Source: Desulforamulus reducens MI-1
Lineage (GTDB): Bacteria; Bacillota; Desulfotomaculia; Desulfotomaculales; Desulfotomaculaceae
NCBI RefSeq assembly: GCF_000016165.1
Contig: NC_009253.1
Coordinates: 2,824,332 to 2,888,331, forward strand
Direction: 5' to 3'
DNA length: 64,000 nt
A program made the translations under genes and the position numbers. Positions 49,824 through 55,177 of this stretch are shown here, piece after piece. The notes under the pieces were generated by a model. That model worked only from the letters and a program-made list of their open reading frames with translations. It was not told the DNA's origin and did not search any database. The stretch's first letter is position 1; each line of letters begins with the position of its first letter.

Positions 49824-50490
49824 TGAAATTTTTTCCCATTTATCCAGCCTTTCACCGGAAATCATCAAAGCCACCTGGGACACCTTCTACATGACAATGG
49901 TATCAGTGATTCTTTCCTCGGTATTAGGCATTCCCCTTGGAGTTATTTTAGTGATTACCGACAAAGGCCATATTAAAGAAAATTTGGCATTGAACCGGGT
50001 CCTGGGATCCATCATTAATATTTTTCGATCTTTCCCCTTCATTATCTTGTTACTGGCTCTGGTTCCCTTTACCCGTTTGGTTGTTGGAACTACCATTGGA
50101 ACCACCGCAGCCATTGTACCCCTAACCGTTGCCTCGGCCCCCTTTGTGGCTAGAATGATAGAAACTTCTTTAAAAGAAGTGAGCTGGGGTGTGGTGGAGG
50201 CTTCTTTGGCAATGGGAGCCAGTACCTGGCAGATTATTCGTAAAGTGTTATTACCCGAAGCCCTACCCGGTATTATTTTAGGTACGACCATTACTGCCAT
50301 AGCTGTGATTGGTTATTCTGCAATGGCAGGTGTCGTGGGAGGAGGTGGCCTCGGGGACCTGGCGATTCGTTACGGTTATATGCGTTTTGATGCGGTGGTA
50401 ATGGTAACCACCGTAGTTATCTTGATTATTATGGTGCAAATTATTCAATCCCTGGGAAACATATTTGCCGATAAATTTAATAAAAACTAG
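49816..50490 (+). CDS. metI: Methionine ABC transporter permease
   Basis: 224 residues with five membrane segments. It contains the family blocks '[20 protein letters not shown]', '[20 protein letters not shown]' and the EAA-like loop '[20 protein letters not shown]', then '[20 protein letters not shown]'. Translation is coupled to metN by overlap. Confidence 0.95.
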
Positions 50491-50501
50491 GAGGAGTTAA
50501 A

Positions 50502-51332
50502 ATGAAAAAGAAGTTTGCATTTTTGGTTGCCTGCTTACTGACCTTGAGCTTGGTTCTGGCCGGTTGTGGTGGCGAAACAAAGGAAAAAACCGAAGCCCCC
50601 GGCAAAGACGCTAAAATATTAAAGGTGGGTGCTACCCCAGTTCCCCATGCAGAAATTTTAAAAGTTGTTAAGCCCATTCTAGAAAAGGACGGTATTCAAT
50701 TAGAGATTGTTGAGTTTAATGATTATGTACAGCCCAATCTGGCTCTCAATGACAAGCAACTGGATGCCAACTACTTCCAACACCTTCCCTACCTCGAAGA
50801 TTTTAATAAACAGAAGGGCCTGGAACTTTCCTATACAGCTAAAATTCACTTTGAGCCAATGGGTCTTTTCTCCAGAAATGTTAAAGCTGTTAGTGATTTC
50901 AAAGAAGGCGACAAAATCGGTATTCCCAATGACCCAACCAACGGCGGCAGGGCACTGGCTGTTTTAGAAAAGGCCGGTCTACTGAAGCTTAAAGAAGGTG
51001 TTGGCATCAATGCCACCGTACGGGATATTGTAGAGAAAAAAGTTGAAGTAATTGAACTGGAAGCTGCTCAATTGCCCCGTTCCGTAGATGATCTGGCCGG
51101 CGCTGTGATTAACGGTAACTTTGCTGTACAGGCTAAATTTGTTCCCACCGATGCTCTGGTGGCTGAAGATGCTAAGTCCGAGGCTGCGGACACCTTCGGT
51201 AATATTTTAGCCATCCGCAAGGGTGATGAAAATCGTGAAGAGATTAAAAAACTTACTGAAGCCCTGAAGAGTGCTGAAGTTAAGAAATTCATTGAAGATA
51301 CCTACAAAGGTGCTGTTGTTGCTACCTTCTAA
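50502..51332 (+). CDS. metQ: Methionine-binding lipoprotein
   Basis: 276 residues. Lipobox 'LSLVLAGCGG' after a short signal peptide. NlpA-family blocks are 'LKVGATPVPHAEILKVVKPI', 'FNDYVQPNLALNDKQLDANY' and 'HLPYLEDFNK', 'EPMGLFS' and 'IPNDPTNGGRALAVLEKAGL'. It completes the metNIQ importer under S-box control. Confidence 0.96.
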   Translation: MKKKFAFLVACLLTLSLVLAGCGGETKEKTEAPGKDAKILKVGATPVPHAEILKVVKPILEKDGIQLEIVEFNDYVQPNLALNDKQLDANYFQHLPYLEDFNKQKGLELSYTAKIHFEPMGLFSRNVKAVSDFKEGDKIGIPNDPTNGGRALAVLEKAGLLKLKEGVGINATVRDIVEKKVEVIELEAAQLPRSVDDLAGAVINGNFAVQAKFVPTDALVAEDAKSEAADTFGNILAIRKGDENREEIKKLTEALKSAEVKKFIEDTYKGAVVATF

Positions 51333-51344
51333 TACAATAAAGGT

Positions 51345-51376
51345 GTAAAGGCTCCCGAGTTTCGGGGGCCTTTACT
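51345..51376 (+). terminator. Terminator of metNIQ
   Basis: GTAAAGGCTCCCGA, TTT-containing loop and CGGGGGCCTTTAC, followed by TTTG. It lies 12 bases after the metQ stop. Confidence 0.8.
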
Positions 51377-51411
51377 TTGTACAAATATTTAGCTATTCAC
51401 GTTATCACCGC

Positions 51412-52110
51412 TTATGAATGCGACATTTCTCTACAAAGTTTATTGATGGTACTGCTCTCAATGCGGGAGATAAAGGAGCGGGATATATCTAGCCTCTTAC
51501 CCACCTCCCGTTGGGTCAACTCTCTTTCACCCTCCAGACCATATCGTAATTTAATGACGATTTTCTCTCTGGGATTAAGTGTTTGAAGGGCCTTTTCCAA
51601 CCTCTCCACATCCAAGCTTTTCTCCACCAGTTCATCCACCGGGATTTCGTTATTGGCCAGGGTATCCTGCAACTCCAAAGGACTGCCGTCTTTATCAAAA
51701 TCCAGAGGTTCAGAAATAGAGATGGTATTTCGCTCACTTTTCTGCTTGCGCAACATCATTAGCATTTCATTTTGAATGCAAACACCAGCATAGGTGGAAA
51801 ACTTTCTCGCCTTCTTTATATCAAAGGTATCTACACCTTTAATTAAACCAATGACCCCCACTTGAAACAAATCTTGCTTATCGACACCGCTATCTTTCAA
51901 CTTATTGGCAATCTTAGCAACCAATCGCAAATTCCTTTCGATCAGAATCGTTTTAGCTAACTTATCTCCGGTTGCCATTTTTAATAATAACTCCCTTTCT
52001 TCTTCCGGGGATAAAGGATCCGGTAAACTGCCGGAAGAAATATAAGAAACCAGAATTGCTATACCATTGAGAATAGTAAGGGCAAGTAACGTAACAATGC
52101 CAGTGATCAA
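51412..52110 (-). CDS. sigK: Sporulation sigma factor (SigK type)
   Basis: 232 residues. An N-terminal hydrophobic pro-sequence (IVTLLALTILNGIAILVSYI) ends near 'SSGSLPDPLSPEEE', a typical pro-SigK layout. Region 2 has 'LIERNLRLVAKIANKL', 'DLFQVGVIGLIKGVDTFDIK' and 'FSTYAGVCIQNEMLMMLR'. Region 4 has 'LNPREKIVIKLRYGL' and 'REVGKRLDISRSFISRIESS'. The gene is unbroken. It directs late mother-cell genes after pro-peptide removal. SigE is the main alternative, but no spoIIGA is adjacent. Confidence 0.82.
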   Translation of the reverse strand: MITGIVTLLALTILNGIAILVSYISSGSLPDPLSPEEERELLLKMATGDKLAKTILIERNLRLVAKIANKLKDSGVDKQDLFQVGVIGLIKGVDTFDIKKARKFSTYAGVCIQNEMLMMLRKQKSERNTISISEPLDFDKDGSPLELQDTLANNEIPVDELVEKSLDVERLEKALQTLNPREKIVIKLRYGLEGERELTQREVGKRLDISRSFISRIESSTINKLCREMSHS

Positions 52111-52274
52111 TGATCATCCCTCCGTAACAAAAATAGTTATCTACTCTATGCTACGAAGCAGCCTTAGGAAAAGTGCATGTTCAACACAAAAAAATTTGAT
52201 AGAAAGTTCTGGTGAAGGATTTAATTTATTTTTATGGAACAAAATAAGAGAGAAATTGAATAGAGGTGGAATTT

Positions 52275-52871
52275 ATGAAGAGAATACAGTTAACCGTTTT
52301 CTCAGATTATGCTTGACCTTTTTGTTACATCGGCAAAGGTATTGTCGAAAAATTGTCCAGAGAATATCCCTTGGATATTACTTGGGTAGGTTATGAACTT
52401 CGTCCGGAAAGAGCAGCGGAGGGAGAAAAATTAAGTAATATACTGCCCGGCGCAGATTTAAAGCAGGTCTTTGCTCATTATAACCAAGCTGCTTTAGAGT
52501 ATGGTATCTCAATAAATCAGGTTGATTTTTTACCCAACACGCATATGGCTTTAATGGCCACAGAATTTGCTAAGGATCTTGATATGTTTGAAGAGTTTCA
52601 TAGCCTTGTTTTTAAGTCTTTTTTTACCGAAGGGAGGGATATTGGCAACTCCAAGGTAGTGGTTGATTTACTGGTCTCTCTGAATGTTCCCCGGGAAAAG
52701 GCTGCTGCCATCTTAAATGATCCAGTTTACTCTGACAGGGTAAAGAAAAATAGAAATGACGCTGTAAATTTTGTGGCTGGTTTACCCACTTTTATCATTG
52801 AAAACAAGAAAAAAATTGTCGGAGCGCAACCTTTGAATGTTTTTAGGAATATTCTTGATAGCTATCATTAA
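52275..52871 (+). CDS. Selenocysteine-containing DsbA-family (FrnE-like) oxidoreductase
   Basis: AGAGGTGG precedes ATG 52275. The frame reads MKRIQLTVFSDYA, then TGA (52314-52316, codon 14), then PFCYIGKGIVEKLSREY, and is open to 52871, giving 198 residues. In FrnE-like DsbA proteins this position is the first Cys of CPxC/CPFC, so the TGA should encode selenocysteine in U-P-F-C. A hairpin 14 bases downstream fits a bacterial SECIS. The rest is a normal thioredoxin fold with helical insert ('LPNTHMALMATEFAKDLDMF', 'VAGLPTFIIENKKKIVGAQP' with cis-Pro). Automatic callers would begin at TTG 52353 and lose the active site. Confidence 0.88.
52330..52348 (+). promoter_or_regulatory. Bacterial SECIS-like hairpin
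   Basis: TCGGCAA (52330-52336) and TTGTCGA (52342-52348) form a seven-pair stem with one G-U, and the loop is AGGTA. The stem starts 14 bases after the TGA, and G is the second loop base, as in known SelB-binding hairpins such as fdhF. Confidence 0.75.
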
Positions 52872-52999
52872 TACTATGCACTGAATTTCACTTAATTGTT
52901 AATTTTTCTTTAAATACTTACATATTTTTAACATTCCGCCACACCATGTGATATACTCTTTCATGGACTAGATTAAAATATCTCCTTGGGGGGGACTAT

Positions 53000-53614
53000 A
53001 TGTTTTTTAAGAAAACTGATATCTTCTTTGAAACCTTTAAAGCCATTGCAGAAAATATTACTAGGGCCGCAGAGGATTTTAGTGCCGAGATACATAACCC
53101 TAGTAGTGACAAAAGGGGGTTAACAAACCTACAAAATTATGAAAAAACTGGGGATCGTTATACTCATACCATTATAAAAGAGTTAAACAAGACCTTTGTT
53201 ACACCCTTGGAACGAGAAGATATCATGAATTTGGCCGTAAAGCTGGACGACATTCTTGATGGCATTGAAGCTACGATGATCCGCATGGATATCTATGACA
53301 TTAAGGATATGAATATCTTTATTAAGCGTAATACAGAAATCATTTTGGAGCAATGCCAAGAGGTCGAAAAGTCCATTGGCAAACTGGTCACCAAAAGGTT
53401 TTTGGAAATTCGTACTCACGCTGTGAGGATTAATGAACTGGAGAATGAAGCTGACCATCTCTTTAACAATAGCCTAAGAGAGTTAGTGGCCTCCTGTAAT
53501 GACGCCATTCAGTTTATCAAGTATAAGCAGATTTACGAGATGCTTGAAGAAGTCACCGATGCCTGTGAAGACGTGGCAAACATTCTTGAGAGCATTCTTA
53601 TGCGAAATTCCTAA
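53000..53614 (+). CDS. DUF47 (PhoU-like) phosphate transport regulator
   Basis: 204 residues, all helical (FFETFKAIAENITRAAEDFS, 'EREDIMNLAVKLDDILDGIE', 'RINELENEADHLFNNSLREL', 'IYEMLEEVTDACEDVANILE'). The E-x-x-D metal-binding repeats of PhoU-like proteins are present. DUF47 genes nearly always precede a pit transporter, as here (16 bases). It probably controls the transporter. Confidence 0.92.
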   Translation: MFFKKTDIFFETFKAIAENITRAAEDFSAEIHNPSSDKRGLTNLQNYEKTGDRYTHTIIKELNKTFVTPLEREDIMNLAVKLDDILDGIEATMIRMDIYDIKDMNIFIKRNTEIILEQCQEVEKSIGKLVTKRFLEIRTHAVRINELENEADHLFNNSLRELVASCNDAIQFIKYKQIYEMLEEVTDACEDVANILESILMRNS

Positions 53615-53630
53615 TTAAGGAAGGCAGATT

Positions 53631-54629
53631 ATGGAACAACAGATTGTTATTATTGCCGTTGTCGTCTTAGCGTTAAGTTTTGACTTTATTAACGGGTTTC
53701 ACGACACTGCCAATGCAATTGCTACATCTATTTCCACCAAAGCCCTTAAGCCCAGAACCGCCATTGTTCTTGCCGCTTGTATGAATTTATTGGGTGCACT
53801 CACCTTTACTGGTGTTGCTAAAACCGTGGGTGGCAAAGTAGCAAATCCCGCTAACATTGAACACGGGGTTTATGTTGTGGCAGCAGCCCTGATAGCAGCC
53901 ATTATTTGGAATTTAATTACTTGGTATTATGGTATTCCCAGTAGTTCATCCCACGCTTTGATCGGTTCCTTAGCAGGTTCCGTTATTGCCGCAGCAGGGT
54001 TTACTGCCGTTAATTTTAAAGGCTTCCTAACTATTATTGAGGGTCTTATTTTATCCCCTTTACTTGCCTTTACCGTGGGCTATATTATTATGTCTATTAT
54101 TCGTATGATATTTGCTAATGTTTCGCCCCATAAATTAAACTCTAATTTTAGATTTTTACAGGTTTTTACAGCTGCCTTCCAAGCCTTTAGCCACGGCACC
54201 AACGATGCTCAAAAAACAATGGGTATTATTACCTTTGCATTGGTTGCAGGCGGGTTTCAAGAAAGCTTAGATGTGGCTCTGTGGGTAAAGGTTTCTGCTG
54301 CAATGGCAATGGCCCTAGGTACCTCCGTTGGTGGTTGGCGTATTATTAAAACTGTAGGTTCAAAAATTATCAAATTTGAACCGGCCAGTGGTTTTGCCTC
54401 AGACCTGACATCTGCCCTAGTTATTACTGGTGCTACATTAATTAAATTGCCGGTTTCCACCACCCACGTGATTAGTTCTGCTATTATGGGCGTTGGTTCA
54501 GCTAAAAGATTCTCTTCTGTGCAGTGGGGGACCGCTGTAACGATGGTTTCTGCTTGGATCATCACCTTACCGATTACAATGATTCTAGCTTCATTAACCT
54601 TTATTATTGTAAGAGCTTTACTTCTATAA
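53631..54629 (+). CDS. pit: Low-affinity inorganic phosphate transporter (PiT)
   Basis: 332 residues with ~10 membrane segments. The two PiT signature repeats are seen as 'SFDFINGFHDTANAIATSIS' and 'QAFSHGTNDAQKTMGIITFA', with 'IPSSSSHALIGSLAGSVIAA' and 'KLPVSTTHVISSAIMGVGSA'. It moves phosphate with a cation across the membrane. A terminator follows. Confidence 0.95.
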   Translation: MEQQIVIIAVVVLALSFDFINGFHDTANAIATSISTKALKPRTAIVLAACMNLLGALTFTGVAKTVGGKVANPANIEHGVYVVAAALIAAIIWNLITWYYGIPSSSSHALIGSLAGSVIAAAGFTAVNFKGFLTIIEGLILSPLLAFTVGYIIMSIIRMIFANVSPHKLNSNFRFLQVFTAAFQAFSHGTNDAQKTMGIITFALVAGGFQESLDVALWVKVSAAMAMALGTSVGGWRIIKTVGSKIIKFEPASGFASDLTSALVITGATLIKLPVSTTHVISSAIMGVGSAKRFSSVQWGTAVTMVSAWIITLPITMILASLTFIIVRALLL

Positions 54630-54675
54630 CGGAAATTGTTTGCAACCTATTGTTTACCAAAGTAGGTTACAATCC

Positions 54676-54712
54676 AAAGACCGCCCCGATTTATTCGGTG
54701 GCGGTCTTTTAA
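54676..54712 (+). terminator. Terminator of the DUF47-pit operon
   Basis: AAAGACCGCC, loop, GGCGGTCTTT followed by TAAT. Confidence 0.8.
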
Positions 54713-54910
54713 TATGTTAATGGTTCTTCTGAAGCGATCGTGGGTTTTTTGTCCACCGTCCATACTTATAAGGGTATTGATTTGAGGGCATAGGGTACAA
54801 GCTGTTTTATCAAATTAATATAAACATTTTTGGTGACACTGATCTATTCTTGATTCTATCTGGTAACTCTCTAATTTGAACTGCATATGCTGTTAGCGGA
54901 GGTGTTTCCC

Positions 54911-55177
54911 ATGGATATATTCCCAAATTTTAAGCAACCTTTGTTTCATGTTCCTTCCCAAAGGCCCTGCATCTCCCTGGGTGGTTGCCTTACCAGTAAG
55001 TTGGTTACCGCCAAGTTTAATAATGGGATGGTCCTATCCATTCGCTTAGCAGAACTGATTCCCAATGAATTGACGAACTGTGCCCACTGTGGCAATCCTG
55101 TGAAACCGGACCAGAAGGGAGTTTGTAAGAAGTGTCGTACTCCCCTCTGCCCATCCTGTGGTAAGTGTAATTGTTAA
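54911..55177 (+). CDS. Zinc-ribbon protein of unknown function
   Basis: 88 residues from ATG 54911, since GGAGGTG lies seven bases upstream (the frame is open from 54887). A mixed N terminus (MDIFPNFKQPLFHVPSQRPC) is followed by a cysteine-rich C terminus with CAHC, CKKC, CPSC and CNC pairs, a double zinc ribbon. Family not recognised. Confidence 0.6.
   Translation: MDIFPNFKQPLFHVPSQRPCISLGGCLTSKLVTAKFNNGMVLSIRLAELIPNELTNCAHCGNPVKPDQKGVCKKCRTPLCPSCGKCNC

Follow-up and report, generated by a model that had tools for sequence, protein, structure and literature searches.

The analysed window comprises 64,000 nucleotides of Desulforamulus reducens MI-1 (NC_009253.1, positions 2,824,332 to 2,888,331), and its forward strand, on which all parts of the gene are situated, carries at 52275–52871 a gene for a predicted DsbA/FrnE-like selenoprotein of 198 amino acids, with selenocysteine (Sec) as residue 14. 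The frame begins at an ATG (52275), 5 nt downstream of a ribosome-binding site, GAGGTGG, read from the letters at 52263–52269, and ends with a TAA at 52869–52871. Its single internal stop is a TGA at codon 14 (52314–52316), the first position of a putative U-P-F-C motif; translated with Sec, the protein reads MKRIQLTVFSDYA-U-PFCYIGK..., giving D-Y-A-U-P-F-C around codon 14 and a calculated mass of 22.5 kDa. The codon of Cys17, the resolving thiol by homology, is located at 52323–52325, and no residue other than positions 14 and 17 is Cys or Sec. A candidate bacterial SECIS hairpin, UCGGCAA-AGGUA-UUGUCGA, with a stem of 7 bp and a loop of 5 nt, follows at 52330–52348. Pro171 (52785–52787), situated in G-L-P-T and invariant among the 40 sequences of the alignment used for structure prediction (A3), is by homology presumably the cis-proline position of the thioredoxin fold. 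In the mechanical list of open reading frames, the sole product in this frame is an ORF of 172 amino acids from a TTG (52353–52871), in which residues 14 and 17, and hence the active site, are lost. The initial annotation had described the ATG, the ribosome site, the TGA and the frame open on both sides of it, and had noted that a start at 52353 deletes the active site, all of which is borne out. Between 52050 and 53050, the promoter scan gave 2 promoter-like sites against 3.6 in shuffled sequence, none of them upstream of the gene, and the terminator scan gave 2 sites where shuffled sequence gave 0.6; the two are located at 52981–52995, past the gene.

With the TGA read as Sec, residues 6–194 match the Pfam family DSBA (PF01323) with an E-value of 6.1e-25 and 88.6 bits, compared with a cut-off of 25.6. 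The best solved chains in a phmmer search are SCO1869 (3gl5, 5e-13) and Deinococcus radiodurans FrnE (5cp1 and 5cnw, 6e-11), and in this alignment the CPWC of FrnE is situated over UPFC. An AlphaFold model, for which the protein of the window was combined with 39 of 80 relatives gathered from genome contigs, has a mean pLDDT of 95.1; in a Foldseek comparison with the PDB, five FrnE entries together with 3gl5 make up its top six matches, with TMq values of 0.87–0.91. The model predicts a strand at residues 4–10, followed by the active site at the start of a helix spanning residues 15–30; judged from the model alone, the first strand begins at residue 4 and would leave no space for a signal peptide. 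The CP(W/F)C site of the FrnE subfamily is thus present as UPFC, with Sec predicted to replace the first Cys. The C-terminal CXXXXC of the FrnE type is absent from the whole protein. Both the sequence and the structure matches support the assignment of the product to the FrnE-like branch of the DsbA superfamily.

Within the order Desulfotomaculales, 25 of 113 genomes match the protein at E<=1e-20, of which 23 matches are full-length and two (L036 and L038) partial. In each of the 25, the match is interrupted by a single in-frame stop, which is always TGA and never TAA or TAG, coincides with the aligned codon and is spanned by the motif SDY[AVTL]UPFC[YF]. In a phylum sample of 398 genomes, 35 match at 1e-10; the search returned 38 match rows, 30 of them with loci, and in the 26 new loci read (8 match rows were left out), the site is TGA in 10 and Cys in 16. 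Among the 80 relatives from genome contigs (of 156 found), CPFC is present in 80 of 80, a set gathered partly with a Cys-bearing pattern and therefore uninformative on the frequency of Sec and Cys. The initial annotation had raised the question of whether Cys or TGA aligns at codon 14; across 25 + 26 + 80 + 2 homologs, the site is occupied by Cys or TGA only and by no other stop, and in the Cys homologs the codon is TGT or TGC in 96 of 96 read. Furthermore, among 31 of the 35 matching phylum genomes, those outside the order, selB was found in 11 of 11 whose match contains TGA versus 5 of 20 whose match does not (Fisher p 7e-5, shared ancestry ignored; G226 was counted on a TGA within residues 5–53). 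Inside the order, selB is present at 1e-60 in 110 of 113 genomes and does not discriminate; the three misses, G029, G083 and G110, have completeness of 84, 70 and 57%, and two of the three carry the Sec gene.

Several individual loci depart from this pattern. The Sec-type L127 (G150:C35:1209-1772) contains a second in-frame stop, TAG, at match residue 33, which may reflect error, decay or further recoding. In G226:C1:237943-238353 and in L038 (G073:C8:45902-46117), the match is split or ends early after a TGA, possibly through a frameshift or an assembly error. In G030, the copy is decayed (L170, G030:C23:17000-23000, from about 2926), with the start, the TGA and the hairpin intact and a TAA 17 codons past the TGA.

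The hairpin occupies columns 17–35 counted from the T of the TGA, so that its stem begins 13 nt past the TGA, and the second base of the loop is G. Among 29 Sec sequences, 99.0% of the hairpin cells pair. Sliding the partner by 1–3 columns reduces the pairing to 26–55%, whereas shuffling the letters within columns leaves a mean of 96.3%, since the stem columns hardly vary. In the same 29 sequences, two-sided changes occur at pair 22–30 in three sequences and at pair 18–34 in one, and the number of additional pair types is equalled by 74 of 500 shuffles. With all 35 Sec sequences, 92.7% of the cells pair and three pairs are changed on both sides, a value reached by 33 of 500 shuffles; in six of these sequences (L037, L127, L129, L131, L135 and L141), which were excluded from alignment A2 and kept in A1, no more than 4 or 5 of the 7 pairs are formed. 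All 7 pairs are formed in 27 of 35 Sec genes versus 0 of 96 Cys homologs, whose maximum is 5. L122 and L123, the Cys homologs nearest the Sec-type L121, form 5 of 7 pairs and may represent what is left of a SECIS, although 5 pairs are reached in 18 of the 96 Cys homologs.

The codons underlying the hairpin are also conserved beyond the encoded protein. In 22 order sequences, synonymous codon identity, scored as the shared codon in row pairs sharing an amino acid (L036, L037 and L038 dropped, shared ancestry ignored), is 0.90 in codons 19–25 versus 0.42 in the other 73 codons; for these codons, picked after the hairpin had been seen, the value was reached by 0 of 100,000 random codon draws. By single-sequence folding, the window hairpin is not unusually stable on its own (z -0.96, 40 of 200 shuffles as good), and a permissive Rfam scan of 50000–55000 gave 4 matches, all under the gathering score and none of them SECIS. 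An RNA model of the hairpin region recovered all 25 order genomes at E<1e-5, a result matched by construction, since 24 of its 29 sequences derive from these genomes. The model also recovered G030 and, in G112, an intact and more distant Sec gene with TGA at the site; weak matches (E 0.002–0.05) were obtained in G031, G038, G040, G065, G078, G083 and G090. A second match in the genome of D. reducens itself (C1:3537854, E 0.025) has no relative of the protein beside it and was regarded as a chance hit. Comparison across the relatives thus demonstrates RNA-level selection on this predicted bacterial SECIS.

The selenocysteine genes for which the initial annotation had proposed a search were all found in the genome (3,608,104 bases searched). 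The tRNA-Sec scores 66.9 bits and is called SeC by ARAGORN, with the anticodon tca; selA and selB adjoin each other, both over their cut-offs; and selD, also over its cut-off, is located at L012 (G000:C1:1315309-1316232), where a single TGA interrupts the frame, in line with a SelD that is itself a selenoprotein. The searches for tRNA-Sec and selB give weak signals in other genes and in controls too, and the matches named here exceed the curated cut-offs.

In addition, the genome contains a second match to the tRNA-Sec family, situated outside the window at L002:1501-1597 (G000:C1:2514030-2514126) and scoring 49.8 bits versus the Rfam cut-off of 47. This tRNA has the anticodon GCA and a U (U73) before CCA, and these two features, common to the selC*-type tRNA-Cys described in PMC7609411 and PMC11415595, fit its assignment as a putative member of this type. 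Such tRNAs were reported from anaerobic Firmicutes (PMC7609411), and according to a review, a tRNA of this kind in D. nigrificans, acting through SelB, reads Sec UGA codons as Cys (PMC11415595). A molybdenum/tungsten riboswitch (RF01055, 74.6 bits) is located downstream of the tRNA-Cys at a distance of about 1.1 kb (L002:2723-2842). At E<=1e-5, DNA related to this tRNA is present in 52 of the 113 genomes of the order, and the 30 loci read with ARAGORN comprise 27 tRNA-Cys (gca) and 3 uncalled. Its presence is not associated with the Sec gene: of the genomes that carry the gene, 14 of 25 have the tRNA, compared with 38 of 88 of the others (p 0.27), so that the tRNA-Cys is not needed for the TGA of this gene.

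Taken together, these observations point to an at least partial insertion of Sec at codon 14, to which we assign a probability of about 0.92, lowered from 0.95 because the tRNA-Sec-shaped tRNA-Cys is present. Translation would initiate at ATG 52275, and SelB, held by the hairpin at 52330–52348, would deliver Sec-tRNA(Sec) to the UGA of codon 14, yielding a 22.5 kDa soluble protein with Sec14-Pro-Phe-Cys17 at the start of helix 1. The proposal of the initial annotation, a Sec-type U-P-F-C gene of the DsbA/FrnE kind, is supported by the Sec genes, by the homologs and by the alignment of the FrnE CPWC over UPFC.

Codon 14 of D. reducens might in part be read as Cys, because the genome contains both tRNAs and UGA-to-Cys decoding is reported in a species of the same-named genus. 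In such a dual-coded enzyme, SelB would bring either Sec-tRNA(Sec) or the tRNA-Sec-shaped Cys-tRNA(Cys) to the hairpin, giving a U-P-F-C site under ample selenium and a C-P-F-C site under selenium shortage, an arrangement that we consider possible and rather unlikely. Far less probable is a UGA read mainly as Cys through the selC*-type tRNA-Cys (GCA), SelB and the same hairpin, leaving the enzyme mostly C-P-F-C. The tRNA at C1:2514030-2514126, the D. nigrificans precedent (PMC11415595) and the fact that Cys is normal at the site in homologs would all agree with it, but the genome also has selA and a true tRNA-Sec (UCA), with higher scores, the tRNA-Cys is unmatched at E<=1e-5 in 11 of the 25 order genomes with the TGA, its presence shows no association with the gene, and TGC or TGT would suffice were Cys the aim.

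Still less plausible is a TGA acting as a true stop, with a 13-residue leader followed by the 172-residue protein from TTG 52353; this agrees with the mechanical ORF list, but in all 25 matches from the order the conserved motif runs across the TGA, with no TAA or TAG, and the shorter protein would, according to the model, be deprived of the strand 4–10, the active site and part of the helix 15–30. The decayed copy in the relative G030 could be cited in favour of gene decay, but decay, like an error of sequencing, is hardly credible here, given the same TGA in 25 separate genomes (23 full-length) and the selected synonymous sites.

A quick tree was calculated from 76 proteins (35 Sec and 41 Cys, with the active-site residue masked, L038 dropped and 25 of the 80 genome-contig relatives used). 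In this tree, 25 Sec sequences cluster with an SH-aLRT of 88, namely 23 from the order together with L119 and L120 from outside it, and the order's L037 and L171 are placed elsewhere, with L127, L129, L135 and L141. The Sec/Cys label requires 5 changes, of which the starred branches force at least 4, so that Sec and Cys have been swapped several times.

In the case of function, the Sec14 selenolate would attack a disulfide, and Cys17 would then resolve the intermediate. A cytoplasmic disulfide reductase or isomerase role similar to that of FrnE is, by analogy, somewhat favoured. FrnE is a predicted cytoplasmic oxidoreductase of the DsbA family, for which a role as cytoplasmic disulfide reductase was proposed, with the C-terminal CXXXXC assisting; this motif occurs in many, not all, FrnE proteins (PMC8945050). 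Because CXXXXC is missing here, regeneration would have to differ from the way proposed for FrnE. Among 14 relatives with about 12–13 kb each, the neighbours in the window are common only to G055, and the other neighbour families are common to at most 4 of 15 loci; the gene context, conserved in no more than one close relative, thus gives no pointer to function. The main texts of two D. reducens proteome papers contain 0 occurrences of 'selen' or 'DsbA'.

The novelty implied by the initial annotation does not hold, since a DsbA-like selenoprotein was predicted in the same species, then Desulfotomaculum reducens, in 2006 (PMC1794560). Zhang et al. list SelD, FdhA (2), FrhD (2), HdrA, a SelW-like and a DsbA-like protein for this organism (PMC1794560), the last as a table entry given without locus or coordinates. 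A DSBA search of the genome at E<=0.01 gives one gene, 52275–52871; because this sole DSBA gene carries the TGA, it is almost certainly the DsbA-like selenoprotein of 2006 and thus already known. The literature searched, with most subscription papers outside its range, contains nothing further on this gene in this group. The present comparison provides order-wide support for the 2006 prediction, and the locus illustrates how a plain ORF list can lose a whole active site. Furthermore, because the genome also contains the tRNA-Sec-shaped tRNA-Cys, the enzyme would offer a convenient natural case for testing the reading of one UGA as both Sec and Cys.

The family of DsbA-like selenoproteins was introduced in 2005 as COG2761 with UxxC (PMC1088965), and reviews of 2022 and 2026 include such proteins (PMC9312934, PMC13188914), the latter as 'form 1' and with their functions described as largely uncharacterised (PMC13188914). 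Compared by description, the gene in the window has PF01323, U-x-x-C, a hairpin closely downstream and widespread Cys homologs in common with the COG2761/PF01323 UxxC family (PMC1088965, PMC13188914), and no feature distinguishing the two was found. With D. radiodurans FrnE (5cnw, 5cp1; PMC8945050), it shares the fold and the CPxC site; in contrast to FrnE, the predicted protein is shorter, has no C-terminal CXXXXC and would carry Sec in the position of the first Cys.
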